Shown here piece by piece: positions 20,869-40,090 of a DNA stretch of 64,000 nucleotides; within the stretch, counting starts at the first letter, position 1; each line of letters opens with the position of its first letter. Origin of the DNA: Novibacillus thermophilus (GTDB taxonomy: Bacteria > Bacillota > Bacilli > Thermoactinomycetales > Novibacillaceae); contig NZ_CP019699.1 of assembly GCF_002005165.1 (NCBI RefSeq), positions 1,612,001 through 1,676,000 of the forward strand, in the 5' to 3' direction. The translations under genes were made by a program, and so were the position numbers. The notes beneath the pieces are model-generated. The model did not search any database, was not told the origin of the DNA, and was given only the letters and a program-made list of their open reading frames with translations.

Positions 20869-22353
20869 ATGAAGCAAGTTTCGTTAGTGTACTGGATCGG
20901 TATGGCGATTGCTACTGTCTTTGTCATTTGGGGTGTCATCGCTCCAAACAACCTTATCGGTGTAATGGAAAGTGCGCAAAATGTATTATTGCGCGTGTTT
21001 GGGTGGTTTTATCAATTTTCAGCCACTTTTTTTATGTTGCTCGCGCTGTTTTTGGTTTTTTCGAAATACGGCAGAATCAAATTGGGCGACGACGAGGATC
21101 GGCCGGAATACAGCCGTCCGACGTGGATTGCCATGCTGTTTAGTGCCGGTATGGGGATCGGCCTCTTGTTTTATGGTGTATCTGAACCGGTTTCACATTT
21201 TGTCAATCCTCCTTATGGACCCGGAGGAACGCCTGAGGCAGCAAAACTTGCGCTCCGGTACACGCATCTCAACTGGGGACTGCATGCTTGGGCAATTTAT
21301 GCCATTATCGGACTGTCTTTGGCTTACTACAAGTTTAGAAAAAAGGTGCCCGGTTTGATCAGTGCCACGTTGTATCCACTTCTCGGGAAAAAAACTCAAG
21401 GACCGATTGGAATTGCCGTTGACTTAGTTGCTGTCTTCGCGACCGTGTTTGGTGTAGCGGCGTCACTCGGTCTCGGTGCGGCGCAAATTAACAGTGGTCT
21501 TTCTTACTTAACCGGCATTCCCACTGCTTTTTGGATACAATTGATCATCATTGCCGTGACCACGGTTCTGTTTATTTTGTCAGCCGCTACCGGTCTCAAA
21601 CGCGGTATCAAATATTTAAGTAATGCCAATATGATGTTGGCAGTCATCCTGTTCTGTTTGTTTTTCGTGTTGGGACCGGTGGGATTTATCCTCGACTTAT
21701 TCACGACTGCGGTCGGTGAATACATTCAGTATTTGCCGAGCATGTCACTGCGGATGGCGCCATTTAATGCGGAAAATGCGGAATGGCTGCGCAATTGGAC
21801 AATTTTTTTCATGGCCTGGTGGATTGCCTGGTCTCCGTTTGTCGGCACGTTTATTGCCCGCGTGTCGAAAGGGCGGACTGTCCGAGAATTTATGGTTGCC
21901 GTATTGCTTGTGCCAACCACAGTGTGTGTCATTTGGTTCTCTGTGTTCGGTGGGACAGGTATTTACTTTGATTTGTACCAAGGAACTGAAATTGCGGCAC
22001 AATCATTGGAAACGGCCTTATTTTATACGTTTCAACAACTGCCTTTGAGCGGCACGATGTCTGTCATTTCTCTGTTTTTGATCACGACGTTTTTCATCAC
22101 GTCGGCCGATTCAGCGACATTTGTGCTCGGGATGCAAACGACAAATGGCAGTCTCAACCCGCCTAATTTTGTGAAGATCAGTTGGGGACTGTTTTTAGCG
22201 GCAACGGCGATCATTCTGATGGGGACAGGCGGTTTGAGTGGATTGCAGACAGCGATCATCGTCAGCGCGTTCCCACTGACCATCGTGTTGCTCTTTATGA
22301 GTTATGCAGTGTTAAAAGCGTTCAGGCAGGAAGTACGGAAAGAAAGGAACTGA
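20869..22353 (+). CDS. BCCT-family osmolyte (betaine/choline/carnitine) transporter
   Basis: 494 residues, about 12 membrane segments. Family signature WWIAWSPFVGTFIARVSKGRTVREF (the segment 8 region with the tryptophan-rich substrate box) and the early AMLFSAGMGIGLLFYGVSEPVSHF. The C-terminus is short (RQEVRKERN) without a long osmosensing tail, which resembles OpuD more than BetP. GAAAGGGGAAGG precedes ATG 20869. Imports a trimethylammonium compound with Na+ or H+. Single-gene transcript, not clearly linked to its neighbours. Confidence 0.92.
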   Translation: MKQVSLVYWIGMAIATVFVIWGVIAPNNLIGVMESAQNVLLRVFGWFYQFSATFFMLLALFLVFSKYGRIKLGDDEDRPEYSRPTWIAMLFSAGMGIGLLFYGVSEPVSHFVNPPYGPGGTPEAAKLALRYTHLNWGLHAWAIYAIIGLSLAYYKFRKKVPGLISATLYPLLGKKTQGPIGIAVDLVAVFATVFGVAASLGLGAAQINSGLSYLTGIPTAFWIQLIIIAVTTVLFILSAATGLKRGIKYLSNANMMLAVILFCLFFVLGPVGFILDLFTTAVGEYIQYLPSMSLRMAPFNAENAEWLRNWTIFFMAWWIAWSPFVGTFIARVSKGRTVREFMVAVLLVPTTVCVIWFSVFGGTGIYFDLYQGTEIAAQSLETALFYTFQQLPLSGTMSVISLFLITTFFITSADSATFVLGMQTTNGSLNPPNFVKISWGLFLAATAIILMGTGGLSGLQTAIIVSAFPLTIVLLFMSYAVLKAFRQEVRKERN

Positions 22354-22428
22354 TACGGAGACTGCCAAAAAAAAGCGGACTGAGTTTGGATTCTCTTGCG
22401 GTTCTAAACTGTTTTACGTTTTTGCTTG

Positions 22429-22560
22429 TCAAAGTTAAAAGTTGAGCATAACTCCCGAAACTTATCTCAATTAATATTGTTTGTGTAATGGACAAACTTT
22501 ATTTTTTTGATATATAATACAATTAAAGAAACCGTTATCAGGGAGGGAAATGGTGAGGCT
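22429..22560 (+). repeat. Duplicated promoter segment, copy A
   Basis: Shares with 22715-22835 the ordered blocks CAAAGTTAAA, CAATATAGTTTGT-like, ACAAACTTTAT, AAACCGTTATCAGG and GGTGAG. Copies are diverged, about 287 bases apart, and each contains a GTTTGT-N7-ACAAAC palindrome. The 22354-22988 stretch carries no gene apart from these control elements. Confidence 0.7.
22479..22518 (+). promoter_or_regulatory. Promoter with XylR/ROK-like operator A
   Basis: Palindrome GTTTGT-GTAATGG-ACAAAC at 22479-22497 overlaps a -35-like TGGACA (22489-22494); TATAAT stands at 22513-22518, 18 bases on. The palindrome resembles the B. subtilis xyl operator core (GTTTGT...ACAAAC), so repression released by xylose or a related sugar is expected. 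Confidence 0.65.
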
Positions 22561-22714
22561 TTGCTTTACGTGCTAGCTCTGCGAGGTTTGATTTACGCGG
22601 AAGAGCAGGCATGGTAGGATGGCGAGGTTTTTCGCTCTTCCGTTAGAAAATGTGCTGCAGAGGCTCCGTGTCAAGTCGAGGTTACAGTGTACTGTTTGTG
22701 CTACATTTTACTTA

Positions 22715-22835
22715 CCAAAGTTAAAGGTGAGAAGAACTTCCGTAAGACTTGATCACTCACTCAATATAGTTTGTATAATAAACAAACTTTATAAACCGTT
22801 ATCAGGAAGGGATGGTGAGAATTTACTTATCGATT
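22715..22835 (+). repeat. Duplicated promoter segment, copy B
   Basis: Second copy of the segment at 22429; slightly shorter because the AT-rich spacer between the operator and AAACCGTTATCAGG is reduced. Confidence 0.7.
22769..22787. promoter_or_regulatory. XylR/ROK-like operator B
   Basis: GTTTGT-ATAATAA-ACAAAC, perfect 6-bp arms. A TATAAT (22774-22779) lies inside it, with TTGATC 19 bases upstream, so bound repressor would cover the -10 element. Confidence 0.65.
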
Positions 22836-22885
22836 CTATTGAACCTGAGTAAATGACGAATATGGTAATTCCAAAAATTTTTTCC

Positions 22886-22898
22886 GGAAGCGTTTTCC
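22886..22898. promoter_or_regulatory. Candidate CcpA (cre) site
   Basis: GGAAGCGTTTTCC is near-palindromic around CG and fits the core A-A-N-C-G-N-W-N-N-C of cre, with mismatches at the outer positions. It lies about 90 bases before the importer gene, where catabolite repression would act as a roadblock. Confidence 0.4.
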
Positions 22899-22922
22899 CT
22901 TTTGTGTAAAGATGGACGGTTA

Positions 22923-22940
22923 CCATAGGAAGTCCTATGG
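22923..22940. promoter_or_regulatory. 18-bp perfect palindrome before the importer operon
   Basis: CCATAGGA-AG-TCCTATGG, perfect arms of eight bases, 49 bases before ATG 22989. Either an operator for a second regulator or a small RNA hairpin in the leader. Confidence 0.4.
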
Positions 22941-22988
22941 AGACGGTATCCTACATCCATGGTATCTGTTTGGATAAAGGAGTGAGAG

Positions 22989-24305
22989 ATGATGAAAAAA
23001 ATATTAGGATTCCTTTTAGTTGTTTCGTTGTTTTTCCTTATGACAGCTTGTTCAAGTGATAGTCATGAAGTCAATGAACAGGATAATGAAAAGCAAAGCA
23101 ATGGGGAAGAAATTTCTGGGGAAATTACAGTCATGGGATGGGGAGGTGGAGAAGAACTACAAGCCCGAAAAGATGCCACTAAAATTTTCCAAAAAATGTA
23201 TCCTGACGTTAAAGTTGATGAAATATGGCTTCCCGCTGATAGCATTGATGAAAAGCTTGATGCTGCGCTTGCTGCAGGAGATGCAGCTGATGTTATTATG
23301 TTATCACCTGACTGGAAAGCTCTTCGTGCAAAATGGTTTGAAGATTTAACTCCATACTTTGAAAAGAATAAAATAGATGAATCATTATTTACTCCAGGAG
23401 CGGATGATGGTTATGTACTTCAGGACGGTAAACGGGAAGGAATGCCTACAACACAATCATGTTTTCTGATTGCTTATAATAAGGAAATTTTTGATGAAGC
23501 CGGAGTTCCCTATCCTACAAATGATTGGACCTGGGATGACTTTGCAGAAATTGCAAAGCTAGTTTCTTCAGGTTCTGGAGCTGATCGAACATACGCTATT
23601 GTTTCACATTGGATACTTAATAGTTTTGCACCTTATCTGTATGGTGGAACACCTTATAATGAAGATTGGACTACACAAACTATTGATTCTCCAGAAACAA
23701 TTAAGGCATTAAAATTGATTGAAGAGTTAATTAAAGCTGAGGCAATACCTGATGATGCTGCATCAAAAAGTATTCCAATGGATGCAATGTTTGTGACTGG
23801 AAGGGCAGCCATGTATCCATTAGGATTGTTTGAGGCTGGTGAAATAGCTAAAAAAGTTGGAGATAGTTTTGAGTGGGGTGTTGTACTACCACCGAAAGAT
23901 CCAAATGGCAAACACACAAATATTAAATTTCAAACAGGATGGGCAATGAATAAAGATTCGAAGAACAAAGAAGCTGCTTGGGCTTATATAGAGACAGTTT
24001 CATTGAATAAAGAAGTTAATGATATCTATGCTAAGGTTGGGATTCCTGCATTAAAGGAATCAGCTGAAACTACGTTTGCTGAAATGACGATCCCAAATAC
24101 TGATATTAAACAAACTGAGTATTTGAATGGGCTTGAGGATGCCGTCACTTTCCCATGGGGAGGCTCTATACAAAAAGCGGCTGACATATTTTTTCAATTA
24201 ATGGATGAGATTAAAACTCATAAAAGCACTGCTAAAGACGCTGTTGAAAAATATGCACCAAAAATGCAAGATGCACTGGATGACATTCATGAGAGAAGCC
24301 ACTAA
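22989..24305 (+). CDS. ABC (xylo-)oligosaccharide-binding lipoprotein
   Basis: 438 residues. Lipoprotein signal LVVSLFFLMTAC-S; then an acidic linker and an extracellular solute-binding type 1 fold (ITVMGWGGGEELQARKDATKIFQKMYP, DVIMLSPDWKALRAKW, WTWDDFAEIAKLV). GGAGTGAGAG before ATG 22989. First gene of the importer-GH43 operon controlled by the ROK-like operators. The following glycosidase and pentose genes suggest xylo- or arabino-oligosaccharides as substrate (inference). The coding sequence is visibly more A+T-rich than the aldehyde dehydrogenase downstream. Confidence 0.92.
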   Translation: MMKKILGFLLVVSLFFLMTACSSDSHEVNEQDNEKQSNGEEISGEITVMGWGGGEELQARKDATKIFQKMYPDVKVDEIWLPADSIDEKLDAALAAGDAADVIMLSPDWKALRAKWFEDLTPYFEKNKIDESLFTPGADDGYVLQDGKREGMPTTQSCFLIAYNKEIFDEAGVPYPTNDWTWDDFAEIAKLVSSGSGADRTYAIVSHWILNSFAPYLYGGTPYNEDWTTQTIDSPETIKALKLIEELIKAEAIPDDAASKSIPMDAMFVTGRAAMYPLGLFEAGEIAKKVGDSFEWGVVLPPKDPNGKHTNIKFQTGWAMNKDSKNKEAAWAYIETVSLNKEVNDIYAKVGIPALKESAETTFAEMTIPNTDIKQTEYLNGLEDAVTFPWGGSIQKAADIFFQLMDEIKTHKSTAKDAVEKYAPKMQDALDDIHERSH

Positions 24306-24387
24306 CTTAGAACCATTAATAAATAGGAGGAAAGAATTATTTTTCCTCCCCCTTACTTTTAGTAATGAATTAGCGAGGGGTGAAATA

Positions 24388-25284
24388 ATGATAAAAAAAT
24401 ATAGTACAAAAGAAAAAAGTGAAGCGAGACTATTTTATATATACATATCACCTTGGATTTTAGGATTTATAATATTTACATTATATCCAATAGTATATTC
24501 AATGATATTGGTTTTTACCAATGCTGATAATACTGGGATCGGTACATTTATTGGATTAGATAATTTCATTAAGGCGTTTACTGAAGATGCCCTTTTCGTT
24601 AAATCCTTGTTAAACACAATTTTTTATGTAGCAATTCAGGTTCCATTAAGTATAATCCTATCAATTTTAATAGCAATCGCATTAAATAAAAAAAATATTA
24701 AAGGAATTCAGCTTTTTAGAGCAGCGGTTTATGTACCGTTTGTTACAGCAGGTGTTGCGGTAACGTTGTTATGGGGATGGATTTTTAATTCGCAGTTTGG
24801 ACTTATAAATTATGCGCTTTCACTATCTGGAATAGAAGGCCCTAATTGGCTAAGTGATGAAAAATGGGCGATGCCAGCCATAATCATCATGATGCTTTGG
24901 TCAATTGGTAATTCAATTATTATAACACTTGCGGGTTTACAGGATATACCAAAACAATTGTATGAGAGTACTGAAATAGATGGTGCAAACGGTATTCAGA
25001 AGATTATTTATATCACGATCCCTCTATTGACACCTACCATATTTTTTAATTTAGTAATGGGAATAATAAACGGATTTCAAATTTTCACGCAACCATACGT
25101 TTTAACAGAAGGTGGGCCTAATCATGCTACTTATACAATCATGATGCATATATACAATCATGCATTTAAATATGGTGAGATGGGATATGCTTCAACATTA
25201 GCATGGATTTTATTCAGTATTATTATGATCCTTACTCTGATTATAAACCAGACATCTAAACGTTGGGTACACTATGACAATTAA
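24388..25284 (+). CDS. ABC sugar permease, MalF/UgpA type
   Basis: 298 residues from ATG 24388, seven bases after GAGGGG; the frame is open from 24205 but that part overlaps the binding-protein gene. Six membrane segments (first YISPWILGFIIFTLYPIVYSMI) and EAA loop YESTEIDGANGIQKIIYITIPLL. Forms the pore with the next permease. No ATPase gene follows, so a shared ATPase encoded elsewhere is needed. Confidence 0.92.
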   Translation: MIKKYSTKEKSEARLFYIYISPWILGFIIFTLYPIVYSMILVFTNADNTGIGTFIGLDNFIKAFTEDALFVKSLLNTIFYVAIQVPLSIILSILIAIALNKKNIKGIQLFRAAVYVPFVTAGVAVTLLWGWIFNSQFGLINYALSLSGIEGPNWLSDEKWAMPAIIIMMLWSIGNSIIITLAGLQDIPKQLYESTEIDGANGIQKIIYITIPLLTPTIFFNLVMGIINGFQIFTQPYVLTEGGPNHATYTIMMHIYNHAFKYGEMGYASTLAWILFSIIMILTLIINQTSKRWVHYDN

Positions 25285-25302
25285 CACTTGGGTGGTGTAA
25301 AC

Positions 25303-26184
25303 ATGCTAGGTCGAGTGGAAGCTCAAAAACAGATAAATTCATCTAACAATAGAAGCATTGATCTTGTTAAAAGTATTTTCGGTTATATTGTTTTAACAAT
25401 AATTGCATTGATCTTTATTTTCCCGTTTTTATGGATGGTTGCTACTTCCCTTAAATTACCAACAGAAGTCTATACAATCCCTCCAAAATTGTTGCCAGAA
25501 ACAATAACATTTGAAAATTTTATTGAGGGTTGGCAATATGCAGATTTCACCAGGTATACATGGAATACGATTGTTGTAACAACTTTAGCGGTTTTAGGAA
25601 CCGTAATCTCTTCATCCTTTGTTGCTTATGGATTTGCAAGATTTAAATCGCGTTACAGCACTTTGCTTTTTACGATCGTTCTTGGTACCATGATGCTTCC
25701 TGATCAAGTTCTTCTGATACCGACTTATATTTTATTTTCTAAAATCGGTTGGTTAGATACGCTTAAACCCCTTATCATCCCTTCATATTTTGGAGGTGGG
25801 GCGTTCAATATTTTCTTACTAAGACAATTTTTTAAGACAATCCCCAAAGAGTTAGATGAAGCTGCTTATATTGATGGAGCAAATTCATTTCAAATATACT
25901 ATAAAATACTATTACCACAAATAAAACCTGCTTTGACAACAATTGCAGTTTTATCAATTGCATACCATTGGAATGACTTTCTGAACCCCTTAATTTACTT
26001 AAATAGTGAGGAAAATTTTACACTTGCAATTGGTTTAAAATTTTTCGAGAATTCTTATGGATCTACACAAATCCAAATGCTTATGGCAGTTTCCTTAATA
26101 GCCGTAATTCCATTAATTATACTGTTTATAATCGCACAAAAATATTTTGTTGAAGGTATCACAATGTCAGGATTAAAGGGGTGA
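25303..26184 (+). CDS. ABC sugar permease, MalG/UgpE type
   Basis: 293 residues from ATG 25303 (GGGTGGTG upstream; an in-frame TTG at 25288 is less likely). Six membrane segments beginning IVLTIIALIFIFPFLWMVATSLK and EAA loop LDEAAYIDGANSFQIYYKILLPQ. Partner of the preceding permease; 18 bases separate the genes. Confidence 0.92.
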   Translation: MLGRVEAQKQINSSNNRSIDLVKSIFGYIVLTIIALIFIFPFLWMVATSLKLPTEVYTIPPKLLPETITFENFIEGWQYADFTRYTWNTIVVTTLAVLGTVISSSFVAYGFARFKSRYSTLLFTIVLGTMMLPDQVLLIPTYILFSKIGWLDTLKPLIIPSYFGGGAFNIFLLRQFFKTIPKELDEAAYIDGANSFQIYYKILLPQIKPALTTIAVLSIAYHWNDFLNPLIYLNSEENFTLAIGLKFFENSYGSTQIQMLMAVSLIAVIPLIILFIIAQKYFVEGITMSGLKG

Positions 26185-26353
26185 TCGAAACATTTCCTAA
26201 AGAGACATTTATACAACATATTATAAGGAGACAATAAATTAGTCGTACTAGATACACAAGATTAGGAAAGGATTAAATCTCTCTTTCCGATCTTGGCTCA
26301 CAATATATAAGTGATGTATGTGCAAAAAACACATGACCCAGAAGGTGATAATA

Positions 26354-28165
26354 ATGACATTACAAGCGAATAAAGAATCGAATTATATACTTTGCTATAC
26401 CAGATTACCAAAAAAAGACATCATCTATTCCACAAAATTAGCTTATAGTATGCATCTTGCTTATAGTAATGATGGAATAAATTTTGAACCGTTAAATCAT
26501 AATTCTGGGGTTTTGTTTGCGAAAGCAACTGAAAATGAGAACGGTTCCCTCAACGCGAAGAGTTTAAAAAATCCCTATATATTCTATTTGAAAGATGGAA
26601 ATTTTGGAGTCATAGCTGTTCGTACTGAATCGGATGGCCGAAACGATGAGGAGAGTAAAGGAAAAGTCCTTATTTTTTCATCTCCAGATTTGTTACAATA
26701 TGAAGAAATTGGATTACTAGATTTGAAGGGAAACACTTTTGTTAATGACGTAGTTTGTAATTACGATGATGAAAAACAGGCTTATATAATTAGATGGAGC
26801 GATGATTTTGGAAATTATTATGTGAATTTTATAGAGGATATTTTTTTAGATAATATTTCTGATCCTGCACATAGTGAACCTTTTCAGTTGGATCCTGTTA
26901 AAACAAAGATAGAAGAAATAGTTCCTAGAAACGTTATACGCGTTTCAGAAGAAATTGCCCATAGACTAATCTGTAAACTGACAGTGCCAACGAATGTTAA
27001 AATAGAGACTCCAAAAAGTGTCAAAATAAAAAGTGAAGAAGATTTAAAAGATGTGAAAGCAAGGGCAATATACAGTGATGGGACAACAGATATAAAGTAC
27101 GTTGATTGGGATAAAAGGGGTATCGACTGGAAGAAGCCTGGAACCTATAGGATAACCGGTACAGTACACCAAGATCACTACTCATTTCCAGTTGCAATTG
27201 ACCGAGCTGATCCGTGTATTACTAAATGGAATGGAAAGTACTACTTTATAGCTACAAATGATGCCGATGGAAATCATTCTTTATACATCAGGGAAGCAGA
27301 CACAATTCCAGGATTAGTGGATGCTGAGGAAAGATTGATACTTGATTCCAACACATACGAAGATATTAAAGGTTTATTATGGGCGCCAGAGTTTCACATA
27401 ATAGAAGGTGATCTTTATATCTTTCATGGTGCCACATCGGGTGGGTTTTACTATGAACAATCACACGTTATGAAATTACGAAGAGGCGGGACCCCTGTTT
27501 GTGCAAAAGATTGGTCAAGACCACATCGTGTTGTAAAAAAAGATGGCACTTATTTGTGTGAAGCAGGGAAGACTATATCTTTGGATATGACTGTCATTCA
27601 ATGGAATGGAGAATATTATGTCGTTTGGTCACAGAGAGAATTTATACCTGAAGATCTTGGGGCGTGGCTTTACATTGCAAAGGTTGATCCAAAGGAACCT
27701 TGGAGATTAATTTGTGACCCGGTTGTCCTTACCAAACCAGAATATGGTTGGGAAAATAACAACGTTTTTGTAGTCGAAGGGCCGTTCGCTTTGATGAGAG
27801 ATAACAAACTGTTCTTGACATATTCTGGTTCCTTGATTGATGAAACTTATGTTATTGGATTGTTAACAGCCGAAAAAGGCGCAGATTTGTTAGATCCTAC
27901 TTGTTGGACAAAGTATAACTTCCCACTACTTACCTCGAGGAGTGTTCCAGGAGAATATGGTCCAGGACACAATTCTTATGTGGTAGATGATTTCGGAACG
28001 ATATGGAACGTCTATCATGCAAGACCGGGAATAAAAGGTCCTAGGTCTTCCGGGATTCGGCGTGTACATTTTGATATAGATGGTTATCCAAGACTAGATT
28101 TAACAGAAGAAAAGGACCTAAACCAGGATTTGGCTAAGGTCGCGATTGATGTGATTTTGACTTAA
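26354..28165 (+). CDS. Intracellular GH43-type glycosidase with inserted Ig-like domain
   Basis: 603 residues from ATG 26354 (GAAGGTGAT six bases before). No signal peptide. The N-terminal ~200 residues look like part of a five-bladed propeller (LAYSNDGINFEPLN, FIFSSPDLLQYEEIG-like), followed by a Big_4/Ig-like unit (VKARAIYSDGTTDIKYVDW, GTYRITGTV), then a GH43 propeller with candidate catalytic residues Asp in DRADPCITKWNGKYYF, Asp in SLDMTVIQWNG and Glu in VVEGPFALMRDNKLFLTYSG. GH43 enzymes are beta-xylosidases or alpha-arabinofuranosidases. It would trim oligosaccharides brought in by the adjacent importer. The Ig-like unit before the catalytic propeller is unusual for a cytoplasmic enzyme. 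Confidence 0.85.
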   Translation: MTLQANKESNYILCYTRLPKKDIIYSTKLAYSMHLAYSNDGINFEPLNHNSGVLFAKATENENGSLNAKSLKNPYIFYLKDGNFGVIAVRTESDGRNDEESKGKVLIFSSPDLLQYEEIGLLDLKGNTFVNDVVCNYDDEKQAYIIRWSDDFGNYYVNFIEDIFLDNISDPAHSEPFQLDPVKTKIEEIVPRNVIRVSEEIAHRLICKLTVPTNVKIETPKSVKIKSEEDLKDVKARAIYSDGTTDIKYVDWDKRGIDWKKPGTYRITGTVHQDHYSFPVAIDRADPCITKWNGKYYFIATNDADGNHSLYIREADTIPGLVDAEERLILDSNTYEDIKGLLWAPEFHIIEGDLYIFHGATSGGFYYEQSHVMKLRRGGTPVCAKDWSRPHRVVKKDGTYLCEAGKTISLDMTVIQWNGEYYVVWSQREFIPEDLGAWLYIAKVDPKEPWRLICDPVVLTKPEYGWENNNVFVVEGPFALMRDNKLFLTYSGSLIDETYVIGLLTAEKGADLLDPTCWTKYNFPLLTSRSVPGEYGPGHNSYVVDDFGTIWNVYHARPGIKGPRSSGIRRVHFDIDGYPRLDLTEEKDLNQDLAKVAIDVILT

Positions 28166-28197
28166 ATATGTCCTTTACATGAATATCATCGTGACAA

Positions 28198-28231
28198 TTG
28201 TTTAATAGAATAGTTTGTAGTATAAATAAAC
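28198..28231 (+). promoter_or_regulatory. Promoter with XylR/ROK-like operator C
   Basis: TTGTTT (28198-28203), 17 bases, TATAAA (28221-28226). The palindrome GTTTGT-AGTATAA-ATAAAC (28213-28231, one mismatch, same 19-base length as operators A and B) covers the -10. Controls the dehydratase-dehydrogenase genes that follow. Confidence 0.65.
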
Positions 28232-28269
28232 TTATTTGATTAATAGTTGAGTAACTGCGGAAATTCCAG

Positions 28270-28341
28270 AAAAGCAATGAAGAAGCTTCGAACATAAGAT
28301 TAACGAGCATGCTAAAATAATTTTTTATTTCGAGAGGGAGG
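28270..28341 (+). promoter_or_regulatory. Leader shared with the operon at 9479 (copy 2)
   Basis: ATGAAGAAGCTTCGAA and AACGAGCATGCTAAA blocks up to the ribosome site GAGAGGGAGG; see copy 1 at 9376-9468. Confidence 0.6.
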
Positions 28342-28346
28342 TTCCT

Positions 28347-29216
28347 ATGAGAATCATTCGTTACCAGAAGACCAACGGATCCAAACAATTAGCGGCCGTG
28401 ACCGAAGATTCAGCAATCTACCCCTTGCCGTATAAAGATTTTTTAGCGTTAATCGAACAGGCAGAGACGCATAAGGTATCATGTTTATCCTTGGTAATGC
28501 AAACCGTGAATCGTTCACAGCCGATCGAGAAACATTTAGAAGATTTGACTTTACTTGTACCTATCGATGCCTATGAAGTGTGGGCATCCGGGGTGACCTA
28601 TCGACGGAGTAAGGATGCAAGAAATTTTGAAGCAAAAACGACAAGTGAATCCTTTTACGATAAGGTTTATACAGCCGAGAGGCCGGAACTATTCCTAAAG
28701 TCCACCAGTCGACGAACGGTTGGGCCACACACTCCCATTTATTTGAGAACTGATTCTCACTGGCAAGTTCCGGAGCCGGAGCTTGGTCTTGTCTTGAACA
28801 GAAAAGGGGAAATATTAGGTTACACAATTGGTAATGATCTGAGCAGTCGCGATATTGAGGGAGAGAATCCACTGTACTTGTCCCAGGCCAAAATTTGGCG
28901 GAACTCTTGTGCGATTGGTCCAGCCATACGACTTGCCGAAACGGTGGATGATCCGTATCGACTTTCCATTTTCTGCCGAATTTACAGAGAAGGTAGGAAG
29001 GTGTTTGAAGATTGGGGCAGTACTTCTCAGTTAGAAAGACAGTATGACGAACTTGTTTCCTACTTAATGAAAGATAATGTCATTTTCAACGGAACTGTGC
29101 TGTTAACAGGGACTTGCATTGTCCCGGGCAATGACTTTACGCTGAGGGAGGGCGATCAAGTTGAAATCGAGATTCCGGAGATTGGCATTCTGGTCAACCC
29201 AGTAAAGGAACAGTAA
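28347..29216 (+). CDS. 2-keto-3-deoxypentonate dehydratase (FAH family)
   Basis: 289 residues. C-terminal fumarylacetoacetase-like domain with the metal-binding acids in WQVPEPELGLVLN (E-x-E) and an Asp in IGNDLSSRDIEGENPLYLSQAK; N-terminal part VWASGVTYRRSKDARN... is typical of 2-keto-3-deoxy-D-arabinonate/xylonate dehydratases rather than of hydrolases. The reaction converts 2-keto-3-deoxypentonate to 2-oxoglutarate semialdehyde (Weimberg pathway). GAGAGGGAGG precedes ATG 28347. The next gene encodes the enzyme for the following step, 30 bases downstream. Functional call rests on sequence pattern plus context. Confidence 0.88.
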   Translation: MRIIRYQKTNGSKQLAAVTEDSAIYPLPYKDFLALIEQAETHKVSCLSLVMQTVNRSQPIEKHLEDLTLLVPIDAYEVWASGVTYRRSKDARNFEAKTTSESFYDKVYTAERPELFLKSTSRRTVGPHTPIYLRTDSHWQVPEPELGLVLNRKGEILGYTIGNDLSSRDIEGENPLYLSQAKIWRNSCAIGPAIRLAETVDDPYRLSIFCRIYREGRKVFEDWGSTSQLERQYDELVSYLMKDNVIFNGTVLLTGTCIVPGNDFTLREGDQVEIEIPEIGILVNPVKEQ

Positions 29217-29246
29217 TATCGACAACGACGAATTAGGAGGGTACAT

Positions 29247-30716
29247 ATGTCTATAGTTACTACTGAGGAAAGCGTGTATTTAAATTATGTTAACGGTGCA
29301 TGGAGAAAATCATCAACGGGGGAAGTGATCCCCTCTTATAACCCTGCGGATATTAACGAAATCGTCGGGAAGGTGCAGAGTTCCAGTATAGCAGATCTCG
29401 ATTATGCCATACAGGCGGCAAAATCAGTGCAAAAAAGTTGGGGAAAGTTGTCCGGTTCAGAACGTGGGGAGTATCTCTATAAAGTTGCGCAAATACTCGA
29501 AAACCGTCTTGATGAGATTGCGGAAACAATGACCCGAGAGATGGGTAAGACCTTACCCGAAGCGAAAGGGGAAACGGCACGTGGTATTGCCATTCTAAAG
29601 TATTATGCGGGCGAAGGAACACGAAAAATTGGCGATGTCATTCCGTCGACGGATCGCTCTGCTTTAATGTTTAGCAAACGAGTACCGGTCGGGGTGGTTG
29701 GGGTCATTACTCCGTGGAATTTTCCCGTCGCGATTCCGGTGTGGAAAATAGCGCCGGCTCTTGTCTACGGCAATACTGTTGTGTTAAAACCAGCAACCGA
29801 AGCGGCAGTGACAGTTGCAAAATTGGTCGAGTGTTTTGATCAAGCTGGAATCCCCGAAGGTGTGCTCAATTTGGTTACTGGTAGGGGTTCAATCATCGGC
29901 CGGGGATTGGCAGAAAGTCCAGATGTGGATGCTGTCACTTTTACTGGTTCGAACAACGTTGGAGTTCAGATTGGTCAAACGGTTGCCGCCCGTGGAGGGA
30001 AATATCAATTAGAGATGGGAGGAAAGAACCCGATTATTATCGCGGATGACTGTGATCTTGATAAAGCGGTAGAGGCGGTACTGAATGGAGGATTAAAAAC
30101 GACGGGACAAAAGTGTACATGCAGTAGCCGGGTCATCGTACAAAGTGGGATTTATGAGGCGTTTAAGAAAAAATTACTCGACAAAGTAAAAGAAATTAAG
30201 GTTGGTGATGGTTTAAAAGAGGAAACTTGGATGGGGCCTTGTGCGAACAAATCTCAGTTTGAAATCGTTAAACAATACATTCAAAAAGGGATCGACGAAG
30301 GAGCTGATTTACTCTATGGTGGAGATGAGCCGCAGGACGATGATTTAAAAAACGGTCTCTATATTCGTCCGACGATATTTGATAAAGTCACCTCATCCAT
30401 GGCGATTGCCCAGGAAGAGATTTTTGGTCCCGTATTAGTTTTAATGAAGGTGGACACTGTCGAAGAAGCTATTGAATTGGCTAATGATGTGGCATACGGG
30501 TTAAGTGCTTCTATCTTTACGAAAAACATCGGTCACATTCTATCATTTGTAGACGATATTGAAGCTGGACTAGTGCGTGTAAATTCGGAAACGACGGGTG
30601 TAGAATATCAAGCGCCATTCGGGGGTATGAAGTCTTCCAGTTCACATTCTCGGGAACAGGGGGAAGCCGCGAAGGAATTCTTTACATCGATAAAGACCGT
30701 GTTTGTTAAATCGTAG
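29247..30716 (+). CDS. 2-oxoglutarate semialdehyde dehydrogenase
   Basis: 489 residues, aldehyde dehydrogenase superfamily: [13 protein letters not shown] start, [19 protein letters not shown], cofactor loop [12 protein letters not shown], general base Glu in [11 protein letters not shown], nucleophile Cys in [11 protein letters not shown], and late EEIFGPVL. It closely follows the KGSADH/2,5-dioxovalerate dehydrogenase type ([28 protein letters not shown] at the end). Oxidises 2-oxoglutarate semialdehyde to 2-oxoglutarate with NAD(P)+, feeding the TCA cycle. AGGAGGG lies ~8 bases before ATG 29247. Cotranscribed with the dehydratase. Confidence 0.92.
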
Positions 30717-30852
30717 AGTACCTTTTATGAAGGGAAAATGATTTCCAAACTACCAAAAACGATGCGAGCGGCGGTATAAAGAGGAGGGTATCATTTTTTT
30801 TAACGTTAGATGTATCGTTACCTCTAGCTGTATAACTAAAAGGGGGAGAAAC

Positions 30853-32829
30853 ATGAATAATGAATATCATGTAGCCAAAAATGGATCAGACCTTGGACAA
30901 GGGACGAAACAAGATCCTTTTTTTACAATTAATAAGGCTGCTTCTATGGCTGAAGCAGGGGATACTGTTATTGTCCATGAAGGTGAGTATCGTGAATGGG
31001 TAAAACCAAAAAATTCCGGATTGAGCGATAAAAGAAGGATTACTTATAGAGCTGCTGAAGGAGAAAAAGTAGTCATTAAAGGATCTGAACGTATACAAGA
31101 TTGGGAGAAAGTTGAAGGCAGTGTATGGAAAGTTGTATTACCAAATGAATTTTTTGGTGGTTATAACCCTTATAAAGAGAAAATTTTTGGTGATTGGGTT
31201 GTATATAATCCTGGGAAACACTTAGGGGATGTTTATTTAAATGGCATGTCCTTTTACGAAGCTAATAGATATGAGGAATTGCTAAATCCAAGCATAAGAA
31301 CAGAAGTATTAGATCACTGGACAGGAGAAATTGTCCCTGTCCATCATCCAGAGCAAACAAAATATCTCTGGTTTGCGGAAGTAGATGAAAACAAGACTAC
31401 CATATATGCGAATTTTCACGACTATAATCCCAACGAAGAATTAGTAGAAATAAATGTCCGAAAATGTTGTTTTTATCCAGAAGAAACAGGGATTAATTAT
31501 ATTACTGTTAAAGGTTTTGAAATGTGTCACGCAGCAACTCCGTGGGCCCCACCGACAGCGGATCAGCCAGGGTTAATAGGCCCTCATTGGAGTAAAGGTT
31601 GGATTATTGAAGATAACATCATTCATGATTCGAAATGTAGTGCAATTAGTATTGGCAAAGAAGCATCGACAGGGAATAACTTTCGTTCCAAGCGGAAAGA
31701 TAAGCCAGGTTATCAATATCAGTTAGAATCTGTATTTCTTGCTCGGCAAGCTGGATGGAGTAAAGAGAAAATTGGTTCACACATTATCCGAAACAATACG
31801 ATATATGATTGTGGACAAAACGGTATTGTAGGTCATTTGGGATGTGTATTTAGTGAAATATATAGTAACCATATTTATAATATTGGTTTAAAAAGAGAGT
31901 TTTATGGACACGAGATTGCTGGTATCAAGTTACACGCAGCCATTGATGTGCAAATTTATCATAATCGTATTCATGATTGTACTTTAGGAACTTGGCTAGA
32001 TTGGCAAACACAAGGTACAAGAGTAAGTAAAAATTTGTTTTATCGAAATAATCGTGATTTGTTTGTAGAAGTTAGTCATGGTCCCTATTTAGTGGATCAC
32101 AATATTTTGGCATCTGACTATGCAATCGACAATTTTGCTCAAGGTGGAGCCTACATAAACAACTTAATTTGTGGGAAAATGGTTCTTTCGAAAGTTCTCA
32201 ATCGTGCAACTCCATATCATGTGCCTCATAGTACAGAGGTAGCAGGGTTTGCAGTTGTGTATGGTGGAGACGACCGAATGTTTAACAATATCTTTATTGG
32301 CGGTGATTATATAAAAACTAAAACTGCCCGTAACATCGGTGCTAACGCTTTAGAGAATTCTAAAGAGGGGATGGGGACTTCTCACTATAACGGTTATACT
32401 CAATCATTAGAGGAGTATATTGAAGCAGTTGAAAGTAAAGAGCCTGGCGATCTAGATATATTCATGACTGTAGAACAGCCTGTTTATATTAACCACAACA
32501 TATACTTAAATGGAGCAGTACCTTTTGAAGAAGAAGAAGAGAATATTGTGGTGGATCATTTTGATCCGGAAATAAACATTATAGAAGAAGGAGATGAAGT
32601 ATATCTTACTTGTAAGCTTCCAGAAGACTTTGAGAAATTATCTGGAAAAATTCATTCTACAAACACATTAGAAAGAGTGCGGATAGTCGATGCTGAATTT
32701 GTTAATCCAGATGGAAGTGAATTAATTTTAGATACAGATTACTTCGGAAAACAAAAAGATGGAAAAAGCGTTTTGGGACCATTTAATATTCTGCAAAAAG
32801 GAAAAAACCGTGTGAAGATTTGGGGTTAA
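30853..32829 (+). CDS. GH120 beta-xylosidase (right-handed beta-helix)
   Basis: 658 residues, no signal peptide. Strong family resemblance along the whole length to the Thermoanaerobacterium XylC type: YHVAKNGSDLGQGTKQDPF start, GDVYLNGMSFYEANRYEEL, ATPWAPPTADQPGLIGPHW, HEIAGIKLHAAIDVQI. The catalytic Asp and Glu of the GH120 structure correspond to Asp383 (LGTWLDWQTQG) and Glu406 (RDLFVEVSHGPYL). Length and residue offset match the reference within one position. Releases xylose from short xylo-oligosaccharides in the cytoplasm. AAAGGGGGAG precedes ATG 30853. The gene is A+T-rich compared with 28347-30716, so it may have a separate origin. Confidence 0.92.
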   Translation: MNNEYHVAKNGSDLGQGTKQDPFFTINKAASMAEAGDTVIVHEGEYREWVKPKNSGLSDKRRITYRAAEGEKVVIKGSERIQDWEKVEGSVWKVVLPNEFFGGYNPYKEKIFGDWVVYNPGKHLGDVYLNGMSFYEANRYEELLNPSIRTEVLDHWTGEIVPVHHPEQTKYLWFAEVDENKTTIYANFHDYNPNEELVEINVRKCCFYPEETGINYITVKGFEMCHAATPWAPPTADQPGLIGPHWSKGWIIEDNIIHDSKCSAISIGKEASTGNNFRSKRKDKPGYQYQLESVFLARQAGWSKEKIGSHIIRNNTIYDCGQNGIVGHLGCVFSEIYSNHIYNIGLKREFYGHEIAGIKLHAAIDVQIYHNRIHDCTLGTWLDWQTQGTRVSKNLFYRNNRDLFVEVSHGPYLVDHNILASDYAIDNFAQGGAYINNLICGKMVLSKVLNRATPYHVPHSTEVAGFAVVYGGDDRMFNNIFIGGDYIKTKTARNIGANALENSKEGMGTSHYNGYTQSLEEYIEAVESKEPGDLDIFMTVEQPVYINHNIYLNGAVPFEEEEENIVVDHFDPEINIIEEGDEVYLTCKLPEDFEKLSGKIHSTNTLERVRIVDAEFVNPDGSELILDTDYFGKQKDGKSVLGPFNILQKGKNRVKIWG

Positions 32830-32990
32830 AATTAGAGTTTGCTGACCGGTTTCAGGCGTCAGATCCAATTTTCGCTGTGTAACGGTGTCGCTGTTCACAT
32901 CTGCAATTCCTCACGAAGGGCCCGAATTCAACCACGGCATATGGCGTAAGATGTGAAAAGGTACATTCCTTTGTGGTTATCATGGGATTG

Positions 32991-33040
32991 AGCCATCGGT
33001 AATTCCTCCTGTTCATCATAACGGAATTACCGTGGCTTTT
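32991..33040. terminator. Convergent terminator between GH120 and xylonate dehydratase genes
   Basis: AGCCA-t-CGGTAATTCC pairs with GGAATTACCG-TGGCT, 15 base pairs with one bulge, followed by TTTTG on the plus strand. Placed between two converging genes; probably serves both. Confidence 0.75.
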
Positions 33041-33103
33041 GTTTATTTCTTGTGTTGCATCTCAAGCAAGGAAGGTGTGCAACTTTACCAAAAAAGGATA
33101 TTT

Positions 33104-35101
33104 TTAATTTTTATGGTTTCTCTTTTTTGCTAGTATTTCCTTTCCAGCTTCTAACACTTCAATAATCCTATCAACATCATAGACACTACCTTTCCAGGAG
33201 CCGCCGCTTACAGACTGTAAAGCAGCCCATAATCTTGTGTCATCCGGTAATCTAGGATTAGGTTTTAAATCAGGATGGGTAGAGCGTTCGGCTAAGAGTC
33301 TCGCTCCTTCTTCTGGTGTTAACCGTCGCTCCCTGGTTCCAATAAAATTTACCGACCCAACTAAATTTTCCCGATCTATGACAATTTCTATAACATCACC
33401 ATTTCGCAATTTTCCAATCGGGCCACCAGCCAATGCCTCGGGACCAACATGGCCAATACAAGCACCTGTGGAAACTCCTGAAAAGCGTGCATCAGTAATC
33501 AAAGAAACGTATTTCCCGTAGGATAAATGCCTTAATGCTGAAGTTAATTGATACGTCTCTTCCATACCCGTTCCAAGTGGACCGCCTCCTATGACTACCA
33601 TTATGTCTCCTGCTTCAATGTCTCCGTTTTTAATGGCGCGGATAGCCCCTTGTTCTGAAGTAAAAACTTTTGCTTTACCCGTATGGCGGTATACACCGTC
33701 TTCATCCACGACATCCGGACTGATGGATGTAGATTTAATGACAGATCCTTCTGGAGCAATGTTGCCAGTTGGAAAAGTTACGGTTGAGGTTAGGCCTCTT
33801 TCCTTGGCTATCTCCGGACTCATAATTACACTTTCTGGATCAACTTTATCAACTTCCAGTAATCTCTCTTTTAATTTCATGCGACGTTCGGATTTTTCCC
33901 ACCAATCTAGATTCTCGCCGAGAGTTCTTCCAGTGACAGTAAGGACATCTTCATGCAAAACTCCTAATTTTCGGAGATAAAGCATTACTTCTGGTACTCC
34001 ACCTGCTAAAAACACACGAACCGTTGGATGGTCCACTGGGCCATTTGGTAATACGCTTACTATGCGAGGAATTTTTTTATTTACACGCACCCAATCTTTC
34101 ACCGTCGGTACTTTTAAACCGGCAGCATGGGCAATAGCAGGAATGTGGAGTAACAGGTTTGTTGAACCTCCAAAAGCAGCATGAACGACCATGGCATTTT
34201 CTATGGCTTTGTCTGTTAATATATCAGATATTTTGATATTTTCTTTTTTTAATGCCATGACCGCTTTAGCAGATTGCCTTGCCATTTCTAACCAAATTGA
34301 TTGACCTGAAGGAGCTAAAGCTGAATGAGTAATGGCCATTCCCATCGCTTCGGCAACGACTTGAGATGAGGCAGCGGTTCCAAAAAATTGACAACCACCT
34401 CCAGGGGTTGCACAAGCACGACACCCAAGCTCAGCAGCTTCCTTTAACGTTATTTCGTCATTGGCAAATCGTGCCCCTATTGTTTGAACTTTTCCTGCAT
34501 CTTCTCCATTAGTGGGTGGAAGAGACACGCCTCCAGGGATGATAATTCCAGGTAAATCCTTGCTACCTGCAAGAGCCAACATCATAGCAGGAAGTCCTTT
34601 ATCACAGGTTGCTACTCCGATAACTGCTTCTCGAGTTGGTAAAGATCGAATGAGTCGTCGATATACAATTGCCGCATCATTGCGGTAGGGAAGGGAATCG
34701 TACATCCCGCTTGTTCCCTGAGAGCGCCCATCACAGGGATCACTGACGTATCCGGTGAATGGAATTCCGTTGTTTTCACGAATAACTTCAGCCGCAGCGT
34801 GCACCAGAAGTCCGACTTCCCAATGACCTGTATGATAGCCTAATGCAATTGGATTTCCATAATGGTCTCGAATTCCTCCTTGTGTGCTCAAAATTAGAAC
34901 TTGAGGTCCCAACAAATCTTTAATATTCCAACCCATCCCGACATTTTGGGATAAGCCAAACAAATGTCCACTTGGAGAATCCAACAGCATTTCTTTTGTT
35001 ATAGGCAGAGTCCCTTCATTCCCTCTTGTATTCGTTTGAATGTTATATATAGATGAGTCACTTATTTCTAACAAAGTATCTAATGACATGTTACTCACCA
35101 T
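33104..35101 (-). CDS. D-xylonate dehydratase, YjhG/YagF type (IlvD/EDD family)
   Basis: 665 residues. IlvD/EDD pattern with Fe-S cluster cysteines in [21 protein letters not shown] and [35 protein letters not shown]; a C-terminal beta-barrel [54 protein letters not shown]. The N-terminal [17 protein letters not shown] and the end [19 protein letters not shown] are diagnostic for the YjhG/YagF xylonate dehydratases rather than amino-acid-pathway IlvD. Makes 2-keto-3-deoxy-D-xylonate, the substrate of the protein at 28347. ATG 35101 or the in-frame ATG at 35089. Its promoter region is interrupted by an insertion sequence 40 bases upstream. Confidence 0.92.
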
Positions 35102-35125
35102 CCGTTTGCAAAAAATATATAATTA

Positions 35126-35141
35126 TTGACAAGTTAATATT
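35126..35141. promoter_or_regulatory. Operator-like repeat, left half (separated by the IS)
   Basis: TTGACA-A-GTTAATAT-T. A near-identical copy TTGACA-T-GTTAATAT-G lies at 36931-36946 on the other side of the IS. Removing the IS and one target duplication puts the two copies 25 bases apart in direct orientation, upstream of the xylonate dehydratase gene. Confidence 0.5.
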
Positions 35142-35239
35142 CTGAAAAGATAACATAGCTAATCAATTGTCGAATCACCATTAGTTTTGTCGAAATGGGT
35201 CAGTCTACAAGGAAAATAGTGGTTCCGGAGCGAATGTCT

Positions 35240-35264: not shown

Positions 35265-35274
35265 GGGATGATTG

Positions 35275-36900
35275 ATGAGTAACTTCGCCCACATCTTAAA
35301 CGACCGTTTTTCCATTGTGGCCGCTACAAGGGATGATGAATACGTCGCCCAGGTGATCAGCACCACGAAAACGATGGACAGCGTACACAACCTGGAAGAT
35401 GAAGCTATCTTGGATGATTTTATGGGCTACTTGTCAGAAACCGGTGTCCTCCATTCTTTTTCCACCTTTCAAGCTAGCCAGTATCAACGGGTGATGATTC
35501 CGTTTTATTACTGCTTGATCACGTATTTGGCCAAAACATTGCTGGGCATTAAGGCGATGAAAAGTTTGCCTGCTCTGTTGTTTAGTGATCAGGGTGTGAT
35601 GCGAACCTTGGGCTTTTCGGCTATGGTGTTGGAAGAAGGGTACTGTAATCGGGGTGCCGGTAAACGGCATAACGACACCCCACCCGCCAGCCCGTTTACC
35701 CCTCAGACACTGGCAGAATTCATGAATAAGGCGACACCACAGGAGATTGAACAACTGTTTAACACCAATATCGCCAACTTAGCGGCATCTGGTGCTTTCT
35801 ACCAACAAGTGACGGGCATCATCGATGGCACCGATATCGAAACGACGCCGAACTACGAAGGTGCCGGAAAAGTGATGCGCAAAAAGAAAATCCACAACAA
35901 AAAGGGCGTCCGGGAGATCGAGTGTGTCGTTTACGGATGGAAAGCGATTGTGTTGTTTGACCAGCACACGGAAATTCCCCTTGCTCTAAAAGTCGTCCCC
36001 ATTCATGAACACGAGTCCAAATATACGCGTGTGCTCATCGAGCAGGCTCAGCGCAATCTGGGCAAGCACAGCCGGATCACCCAAGTGTTGATGGATCGGG
36101 GCTTTCTGGACGGCACCACCTTATATTGGCTCGACCAACAAAAGATCACATTTGTGATTCCCGCACGCTCCAACATGGACGTCGCCCAGGATGCACGGGA
36201 CTTGGCTCAAGCGTCCATGGGGGTGACGGATACACGCCAAGAAAAACAGACGTCCGGTCGTGGCAAAAGCAAAACCGAGCACATCCTCGAGACCCAAGTT
36301 ACTGGTGTCAAGGCGTTAACCAGTTATGTCGATTATCGGGACCCGGCAAAGCCCGCAAAGCAATACAGTAAGACGGGCGGCGGCGGTTGCCCAATCAACG
36401 CCGTGGTCATTCAACGCTACCGAAACGAGGAGATCCCGGCAGACAAATGCCCTGTTTTTTTGACCAACAGTCCCGTTGACCGCCCTTTTGTTCCGTATGA
36501 TGCTTATGATGGGCGCAGCCTTATTGAGAATTTACTTTTTCGTGAAGGCAAACAGGGCTGGAATCTGGAACATGCGCCAACCAAAACGGCCAATGGCATG
36601 GTATCGCACGTCTATTTCACGTTTTTGACCATTGCCCTGACAACGGCTTATCGAACTTGGTGTGCCGAGCAAACGGAAGAAGGCGAAGAGAGTGAATCCT
36701 CTAATCAGCCGTCGAAAGGGATTCGCAATTGGCGTCGTCGCCTTATGCAAGAAAATCAAGATCAGATCATTGTGTTCAGTGGCCCTTATTATGGTATCTT
36801 CCATCTCATGACCTTTGTTCAGCTTATGGGAGGTCAAGTTAAAGACCAGTCTCCCCGTGAGACTGCCGTTTTTCGACAAAATCATCATTTTTCGCCTTAA
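35275..36900 (+). CDS. IS4-type DDE transposase
   Basis: 541 residues from ATG 35275 (GAGGGA upstream; TTG 35272 directly precedes it). DDE_Tnp_1 pattern: first Asp in TGIIDGTDIETTPNYEG, second Asp in QVLMDRGFLDGTTLYWLD, Glu in the YREK-like YDGRSLIENLLFREGKQGW (Y-x2-R-x3-E). A glycine/lysine-rich insert (QEKQTSGRGKSKTEH) lies between the second Asp and Glu, as usual for the long IS4-group enzymes. Intact, so possibly active. Confidence 0.9.
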   Translation: MSNFAHILNDRFSIVAATRDDEYVAQVISTTKTMDSVHNLEDEAILDDFMGYLSETGVLHSFSTFQASQYQRVMIPFYYCLITYLAKTLLGIKAMKSLPALLFSDQGVMRTLGFSAMVLEEGYCNRGAGKRHNDTPPASPFTPQTLAEFMNKATPQEIEQLFNTNIANLAASGAFYQQVTGIIDGTDIETTPNYEGAGKVMRKKKIHNKKGVREIECVVYGWKAIVLFDQHTEIPLALKVVPIHEHESKYTRVLIEQAQRNLGKHSRITQVLMDRGFLDGTTLYWLDQQKITFVIPARSNMDVAQDARDLAQASMGVTDTRQEKQTSGRGKSKTEHILETQVTGVKALTSYVDYRDPAKPAKQYSKTGGGGCPINAVVIQRYRNEEIPADKCPVFLTNSPVDRPFVPYDAYDGRSLIENLLFREGKQGWNLEHAPTKTANGMVSHVYFTFLTIALTTAYRTWCAEQTEEGEESESSNQPSKGIRNWRRRLMQENQDQIIVFSGPYYGIFHLMTFVQLMGGQVKDQSPRETAVFRQNHHFSP

Positions 36901-36930
36901 GTTATCTTTTCAGGTTAATATTATTTTTAC

Positions 36931-36946
36931 TTGACATGTTAATATG
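36931..36946. promoter_or_regulatory. Operator-like repeat, right half
   Basis: TTGACA-T-GTTAATAT-G, second copy of the repeat at 35126-35141. TTGACA with TACCAT 17 bases on could also be an outward plus-strand promoter reading toward the next transposon. Confidence 0.45.
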
Positions 36947-37140
36947 AGCATTATACCATAGTCAACACTTAGTTCGTTCCTAAAACATACAAAGTATTAC
37001 TTTTCCACTTGTGGATCTTATGCATGAGGCATGGGTCAATTTCGCTTGGCATAAGTTTTCCGACAAAAGGAGAAATTGAAGGGTATGTATAAAATTTCAC
37101 TCGAAGGGGCTTAGCAGGATTTCTGAGGAAAAATGCAGAA

Positions 37141-37192
37141 AAGGAAGACCTAAACATGACTCCTAACCGCGACGAAAGGAGAGGTCTTCCTT
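37141..37192 (+). promoter_or_regulatory. RBS/start-sequestering inverted repeat (ISLre2 copy 2)
   Basis: AAGGAAGACCT (37141-37151) is exactly complementary to AGGTCTTCCTT (37182-37192). The right arm lies between the AAGGAG site and the TTG start, and includes the first two bases of the start codon. Confidence 0.6.
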
Positions 37193-39956: not shown

Positions 39957-40090
39957 AGGGTGCACACTAGGATAAGGTTCAAGCATGTTTGTACAGGAAC
40001 AGGCCATTAAAAACGCCCCCTTCCATTAGGGATGAGCCGTCCCTCTCTTGATATATATGTATGGGTCAAAAAGATTGGAGGAGAAGAGAA

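Follow-up and report, generated by a model that had tools for sequence, protein, structure and literature searches.

The ROK-family repressor XylR of Firmicutes is described, in the parts of PMC2873477 covered here, as controlling xylA/xylB, xylFGH, xyloside importers and xylosidases, with autoregulation being common. Its core site is printed as GTTT-N7-AAAC (PMC9104551, seen in part). In the Bacillus regulon (xylAB, xynPB), the operator takes the form GTTTGT-N7-ACAAAC, the repressor gene is divergent from xylA, and operators are found in the promoter region of the repressor gene and xylA as well as at genes for xyloside uptake and cleavage; all of these features recur in the system described below. 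We analysed a 64,000-nucleotide stretch of Novibacillus thermophilus DNA (the window, positions 1612001-1676000 of a genome consisting of one contig of 3,629,225 bases, 3.63 Mb) in which three palindromes of this type accompany genes for a sugar importer, glycosidases and keto-acid enzymes. The three palindromes are very probably operators of a ROK-family XylR that is encoded outside the window.

Occurrence of the operator pattern

The three predicted operators are as follows.

22479-22497: predicted XylR operator 1, GTTTGTGTAATGGACAAAC, no mismatch to GTTTGT-N7-ACAAAC
22769-22787: predicted XylR operator 2, GTTTGTATAATAAACAAAC, no mismatch; TATAAT lies inside it at 22774-22779
28213-28231: predicted XylR operator 3, GTTTGTAGTATAAATAAAC, one mismatch; in the intergenic gap between the GH43 gene and the gene for a protein of FAA-hydrolase fold (FAA)

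An earlier reading of the window, made from the sequence only, had placed two exact copies of the pattern (22479, 22769) and one copy with a single mismatch (28213), and our counts of 0, 0 and 1 mismatches agree. The FAA start is 115 bp downstream of operator 3. The mismatch of this operator (ATAAAC) is in a core position and recurs at the xylR operator. A scan of the whole genome, which that reading had proposed as a check, was conducted with the reversed pattern as control. The exact pattern is present at two places only, namely operators 1 and 2, compared with a chance expectation of about 0.27 places per genome, and so is not common in this organism.

When up to one mismatch was allowed, 27 places were found in the genome versus 10 for the control. 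A single repeated 19-mer accounts for eleven of these (ten identical copies and one variant; one copy is at G000:C1 111626) and mimics the operator with one mismatch; the four copies that we fetched (L004, L006-L008) are all inside a repeated open reading frame (ORF), probably a transposase. This repeat is a trap when scanning this genome for the motif. The other 16 places comprise six at xylan or xylose genes (three in the window and three in the xylR region), seven inside unrelated ORFs and three in intergenic positions elsewhere. In two of the seven ORF-internal places the pattern, by eye, covers codons of the LSGGQ motif of ABC-ATPases. At two mismatches the genome count (220) approaches that of the control (193), and at three mismatches the window holds 42 matches versus 41.6 in shuffles; therefore only near-exact sites are informative. 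The looser search of the window, with up to three mismatches, was accordingly rejected as being at chance level, and an extended pattern, TTAGTTTGT-N7-ACAAACTAA, was of use only to point to the xylR locus.

The xylR gene and its surroundings

A genome search for the ROK domain (PF00480) returned eight matches. One, a hydantoinase-type protein (L016), was dropped. Two are of kinase length (L009 and L015) and have no site within 1.5 kb on either side. The remaining five have the length of regulators and an N-terminal region before the ROK domain, and a helix-turn-helix (HTH) profile match is detectable in four of the five. One of the regulators is encoded about 340 kb away, outside the window:

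G000:C1 about 1975274-1976488 (L017:13274-14488), minus strand: xylR, ROK repressor gene

The product is the closest match to Bacillus XylR in the genome and is 41% identical to a B. velezensis protein annotated 'xylose repressor'. The gene is divergent from xylA (xylose isomerase), which is followed by xylF, xylG and a xylulokinase gene (L018), and models for XylA, XylF, XylG and XylB score over their cut-offs in this region. One-mismatch operators are located in the xylR/xylA gap directly before the probable xylR start, before xylF and before a GH43 gene; at the control rate, the Poisson probability of finding three of them within 20 kb is 2.7e-5. The xylulokinase gene has no operator of its own in the list of sites with at most one mismatch, and may be transcribed from the xylF promoter. 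The four other ROK regulators have no site with up to one mismatch in their 16-18-kb stretches and none with up to three mismatches within 400 bp upstream. Furthermore, the HTH core LNK-TVSS is common to the N. thermophilus and B. velezensis XylR proteins and is not found in the four paralogues. The sequence-only reading had predicted the repressor class from the operators, although its gene is not in the window, and had proposed a search for such a gene; the search located a ROK gene beside xylA-xylFG-xylB with a one-mismatch operator before its own start.

A sensor kinase and a probable response regulator are encoded at L017:7528-9988, beside a second sugar importer in the xylR region, which suggests a second layer of control for xylo-oligosaccharide uptake.

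Genes and predicted promoters in the cassette

The genes that accompany the predicted operators are listed below.

22989-24305, plus strand: sugar ABC importer, substrate-binding protein (SBP_bac_1)
24205-25284, plus strand: sugar ABC importer, permease 1; the real start is probably farther downstream than that listed for the ORF
25288-26184, plus strand: sugar ABC importer, permease 2
26318-28165, plus strand: GH43 glycosidase; best solved relatives annotated as beta-xylosidases and arabinofuranosidases
28347-29216, plus strand: FAA-hydrolase-fold protein, probable 2-keto-3-deoxy-D-pentonate dehydratase by homology only; closest solved relative 2q18, E 5.1e-65
29247-30716, plus strand: alpha-ketoglutarate-semialdehyde dehydrogenase; NF042993, 859.8 bits versus a cut-off of 770
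30853-32829, plus strand: GH120 beta-xylosidase; 3vst Xylosidase, 1107 bits; GH120 insertion domain
33104-35101, minus strand: YjhG/YagF-type D-xylonate dehydratase, substrate per family name; TIGR03432, 1156.5 bits versus a cut-off of 808

The ABC importer and GH43 genes are located behind operators 1 and 2, and those for the FAA protein, the semialdehyde dehydrogenase and GH120 behind operator 3. The solved relative 2q18 is a 2-keto-3-deoxy-D-arabinonate dehydratase, and 2-keto-3-deoxy-D-arabinonate and 2-keto-3-deoxy-D-xylonate are the same compound. Together with the D-xylonate dehydratase, the FAA protein and the semialdehyde dehydrogenase would provide the lower steps of the Weimberg route, the assignment of the FAA step being probable. 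What had earlier been termed 'keto-acid enzymes' can thus be specified as a probable 2-keto-3-deoxypentonate dehydratase together with an alpha-ketoglutarate-semialdehyde dehydrogenase. FAA-GucD clusters on plasmids of the Bacillaceae Metabacillus and Priestia have IclR and UxaA-type genes as neighbours rather than xylan genes, so membership of the FAA family alone is no proof of a xylonate substrate. The content of the cassette (GH43, GH120 and D-xylonate dehydratase) fits xylo-oligosaccharides.

The region upstream of the importer contains a duplication, with the following features.

22408-22575, plus strand: upstream copy, with operator 1, -10, cre-like box, a GGGAGGG resembling a ribosome-binding site (RBS), and ATGGTGAG
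22489-22518, plus strand: predicted sigma-70-type promoter TGGACA-N18-TATAAT, 11 of 12 consensus positions; overlaps operator 1
22527-22540, plus strand: putative cre-like (CcpA) site AGAAACCGTTATCA, one mismatch; core repeated in the downstream copy
22691-22838, plus strand: downstream copy, with operator 2; lacks 26 bp that carry the -10 of the upstream copy

The local alignment of the two copies scores 127.5; none of 1000 dinucleotide shuffles exceeded 71. The sequence-only reading described an imperfect tandem duplication of about 120 bases; the duplication itself is upheld, while its form and length were only roughly given, as copies of 168 and 148 bp are separated by a 115-bp spacer and aligned with a 26-bp gap. 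It is an imperfect, spaced direct duplication, and not tandem in the strict sense. The best-kept elements are the operator, the box AAACCGTTATCAGG, the purine-rich RBS-like stretch and ATGGTGAG. TATAAT is found outside the operator in the upstream copy and inside it in the downstream copy.

Promoter 1 is the best promoter-like match in 22300-28400, and its -35 element, TGGACA, is within the right half of operator 1. Promoter-like matches as a whole are at chance level in this region (25 versus 25.1 expected). By eye, operators 2 and 3 have only -10-like hexamers with weak -35 partners, so that the earlier statement that each site overlaps a promoter holds well for site 1 and weakly for sites 2 and 3. 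The consensus for cre is printed in PMC9104551 (seen in part). Cre-like sites in the window are not above chance (4 versus 5.8 expected), and support for the putative cre-like site therefore comes from its conservation between the copies.

Several other features were observed around these genes. Short leader ORFs beginning with ATGGTGAG follow the RBS-like stretch in both copies (22550-22576, 8 codons; 22812-22856, 14 codons) and are either a translated leader or the relic of a gene start. A perfect 18-bp palindrome, CCATAGGA-AG-TCCTATGG, at 22923-22940 in the leader of the binding-protein gene is possibly a second regulator site or an RNA hairpin. A terminator-like hairpin at 24326-24349, between the binding-protein and permease genes, is of the type permitting excess binding protein. 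Farther to the right in the window, a large amidase (40061-42184) and a large M14 carboxypeptidase (49293-51851) have a C-terminal FIMAH domain in common.

The predicted regulon, its alternatives and known systems

To examine conservation, we compared relatives of N. thermophilus. XylR-like matches (E 1e-70 or better) are present in 54 of 151 genomes, its own included. The one-mismatch operator was found at two of the 29 fetched XylR loci from other genomes, and several relatives have looser GTTTGT/AAAC dyads before xylR. The relative with the closest XylR (G094, 62%) has one-mismatch sites before xylA and before a sugar-importer operon that, by its N-terminal sequence, resembles the importer beside the N. 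thermophilus xylR; throughout that genome the pattern is not in excess (24 versus 25 for the control). A search for related loci among named genomes gave one distant match only, in an unrelated organism. The exact 19-base form thus typifies this genome as well as XylR of the Bacillus type, and is not universal.

Several results weigh against assigning the palindromes to XylR. The remaining 27 of the 29 fetched XylR loci have no one-mismatch site nearby. No site with up to one mismatch is present within 1.5 kb of the FAA gene in any of the 22 relatives that carry this gene, nor near the importer in the four relatives that have it, so operator use at the FAA and importer genes is not conserved. 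Two-mismatch matches near the FAA gene occur in four of the 22, one of them (L030) at the FAA gene start; none was counted as support. In the window itself, the D-xylonate dehydratase has no GTTTGT-N7-ACAAAC site with up to one mismatch in its upstream region, and promoter overlap is strong at site 1 only.

The most serious alternative is that operators 1 and 2 are real and that 28213 is a chance near-match, the keto-acid enzymes being under their own control or expressed by readthrough from the importer operon. The control leads one to expect about ten one-mismatch places per genome by chance, the mismatch of site 3 falls in a core position, and none of the relatives has the operator before the FAA gene. 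We nevertheless regard this as unlikely, since site 3 is intergenic and 115 bp before the FAA start, its ATAAAC mismatch is the same as that at the xylR operator, and one-mismatch places at unrelated genes are mostly ORF-internal (7/10). It is less likely still that the palindromes serve another ROK (or LacI-like) regulator with a similar GTTTGT half-site. The genome does encode five ROK-domain regulators of regulator length, and one paralogue, at 560274, shares 39% identity with XylR, but the four paralogues are without nearby sites under either of the searches described above whereas xylR has one directly upstream, and the HTH core of B. velezensis XylR is present in XylR only. That the palindromes are functionless, AT-rich inverted repeats arising by chance is hardly credible: with three mismatches the pattern is indeed at chance level in the window, yet the exact sites are confined to this locus in the whole genome, where both diverged copies of the duplication have kept them, and there is a cluster of near-exact ones in the xylR region.

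With XylR as the regulator, we infer DNA binding, induction by xylose and the blocking of promoters, and likewise the operon limits and enzyme substrates given above. In the absence of xylose, operators 1 and 2 would be occupied by a XylR dimer, which would block the promoter or promoters of the importer-GH43 operon, and XylR on operator 3 would block that of a unit consisting of the 2-keto-3-deoxypentonate dehydratase and semialdehyde dehydrogenase genes, perhaps with GH120. Intracellular xylose would release XylR. Xylo-oligosaccharide uptake and cleavage and the lower oxidative pentose route would then be switched on together with xylR, xylA and xylFG, genes that have the same operator. The earlier proposal of one regulon for the importer/GH43 operon and the keto-acid enzymes is supported by a shared rare operator that is repeated, with one mismatch, at the xyl locus. 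The lower oxidative (Weimberg) route and the isomerase route probably belong to a single XylR regulon, and one repressor would govern two competing fates of pentose carbon, the pentose phosphate route and ketoglutarate. A motif spotted by eye has in this way become a testable regulon.

The same cassette appears to be regulated differently elsewhere. Close relatives of the importer binding protein (63-64%) are encoded in four of 298 other genomes. In the three with readable surroundings (L106-L108), we observed, in this order, genes for the importer, an AraC-type regulator, GH43, a second AraC-type regulator, the FAA protein, the semialdehyde dehydrogenase, the D-xylonate dehydratase and a GH43 xylosidase. 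Of the two AraC types, AraC_b is present in all five fetched loci of the importer-cassette family with the FAA-dehydrogenase-dehydratase order; AraC_a is present in four of the five and also in the fourth importer genome, where the contig ends. These loci have neither a one-mismatch operator nor the Paenibacillus-type XylR consensus. In the window, neither AraC gene adjoins the cassette, the only AraC-like match being 15 kb away (30-36%). The cassette region (22400-35200) has a GC content of 38.7% compared with 46.9% in the rest of the window, and is followed by transposase genes (DDE, ISLre2 and DDE, at 35272-38603 and 42576-43715). In another relative (G026, L092:5295-13839), FAA and dehydrogenase genes have as neighbours a GH43 gene and genes for UxuA, a short-chain dehydrogenase and a divergent, 731-aa member of the IlvD/EDD family.

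We infer that the regulator was exchanged, possibly upon horizontal acquisition of the cassette; the direction of the exchange is not proven. Tentatively, a xylan/xylonate cassette that was acquired, and that AraC-type regulators run in the other genomes where it occurs, could have been put under the host XylR by way of operator-bearing promoters, one of them duplicated, so that one ROK repressor derepresses the isomerase and lower Weimberg routes, perhaps for oligosaccharides carrying xylonate as well as xylose. A search of the N. thermophilus genome for lytic polysaccharide monooxygenases found none, which leaves the idea of oxidised oligosaccharides without direct support; oxidised ends could still derive from other organisms. 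For the upper part of the Weimberg pathway, two SGL-family lactonase genes are present in the genome, neither of them close to the xyl genes, and no xylose dehydrogenase was identified, none having been sought. The cassette with AraC-type regulators offers a clean natural comparison for a change of operon regulator.

The operators themselves belong to a known kind. Two exact copies are present in the B. velezensis xyl locus (L128) and a single one-mismatch copy in a P. megaterium xyl locus, and a P. cellulosilyticus record contains an exact copy close to its XylR-like gene. The A. bescii XylR probe in the part of PMC12285236 covered matches operator 2 at 18 of 19 positions. The Paenibacillus polymyxa site ACTTWGTTTAWSSNATAVACAAAGT, taken from the portion of PMC9104551 available, is similar in its GTTT/AAAC dyad, in the repressor site over -35 boxes and in having cre downstream, but differs in its outer bases; its consensus, with up to five mismatches, was found in none of 30 loci scanned (29 from relatives and one own). 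Unlike the Bacillus regulon, that of N. thermophilus would include a probable 2-keto-3-deoxypentonate dehydratase and a ketoglutarate-semialdehyde dehydrogenase, an ABC importer in place of one of the major facilitator superfamily, and a duplicated operator region. The word xylonate is absent from the text of PMC2873477, and the regulons in the parts covered contain no oxidative-route genes; the titles and abstract openings of a limited open-licence literature likewise gave no report of such genes under a ROK XylR in Firmicutes. The predicted enzymes resemble the Weimberg route in having a D-xylonate dehydratase, a 2-keto-3-deoxypentonate dehydratase and a ketoglutarate-semialdehyde dehydrogenase. 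The likeness covers the lower steps and, unlike the Weimberg route, these coexist with the isomerase route and include a YjhG-type dehydratase with distant IlvD/EDD enzymes as its solved relatives. What sets this system apart from those described is therefore the content of the regulon, together with the different regulator that the same cassette has elsewhere.

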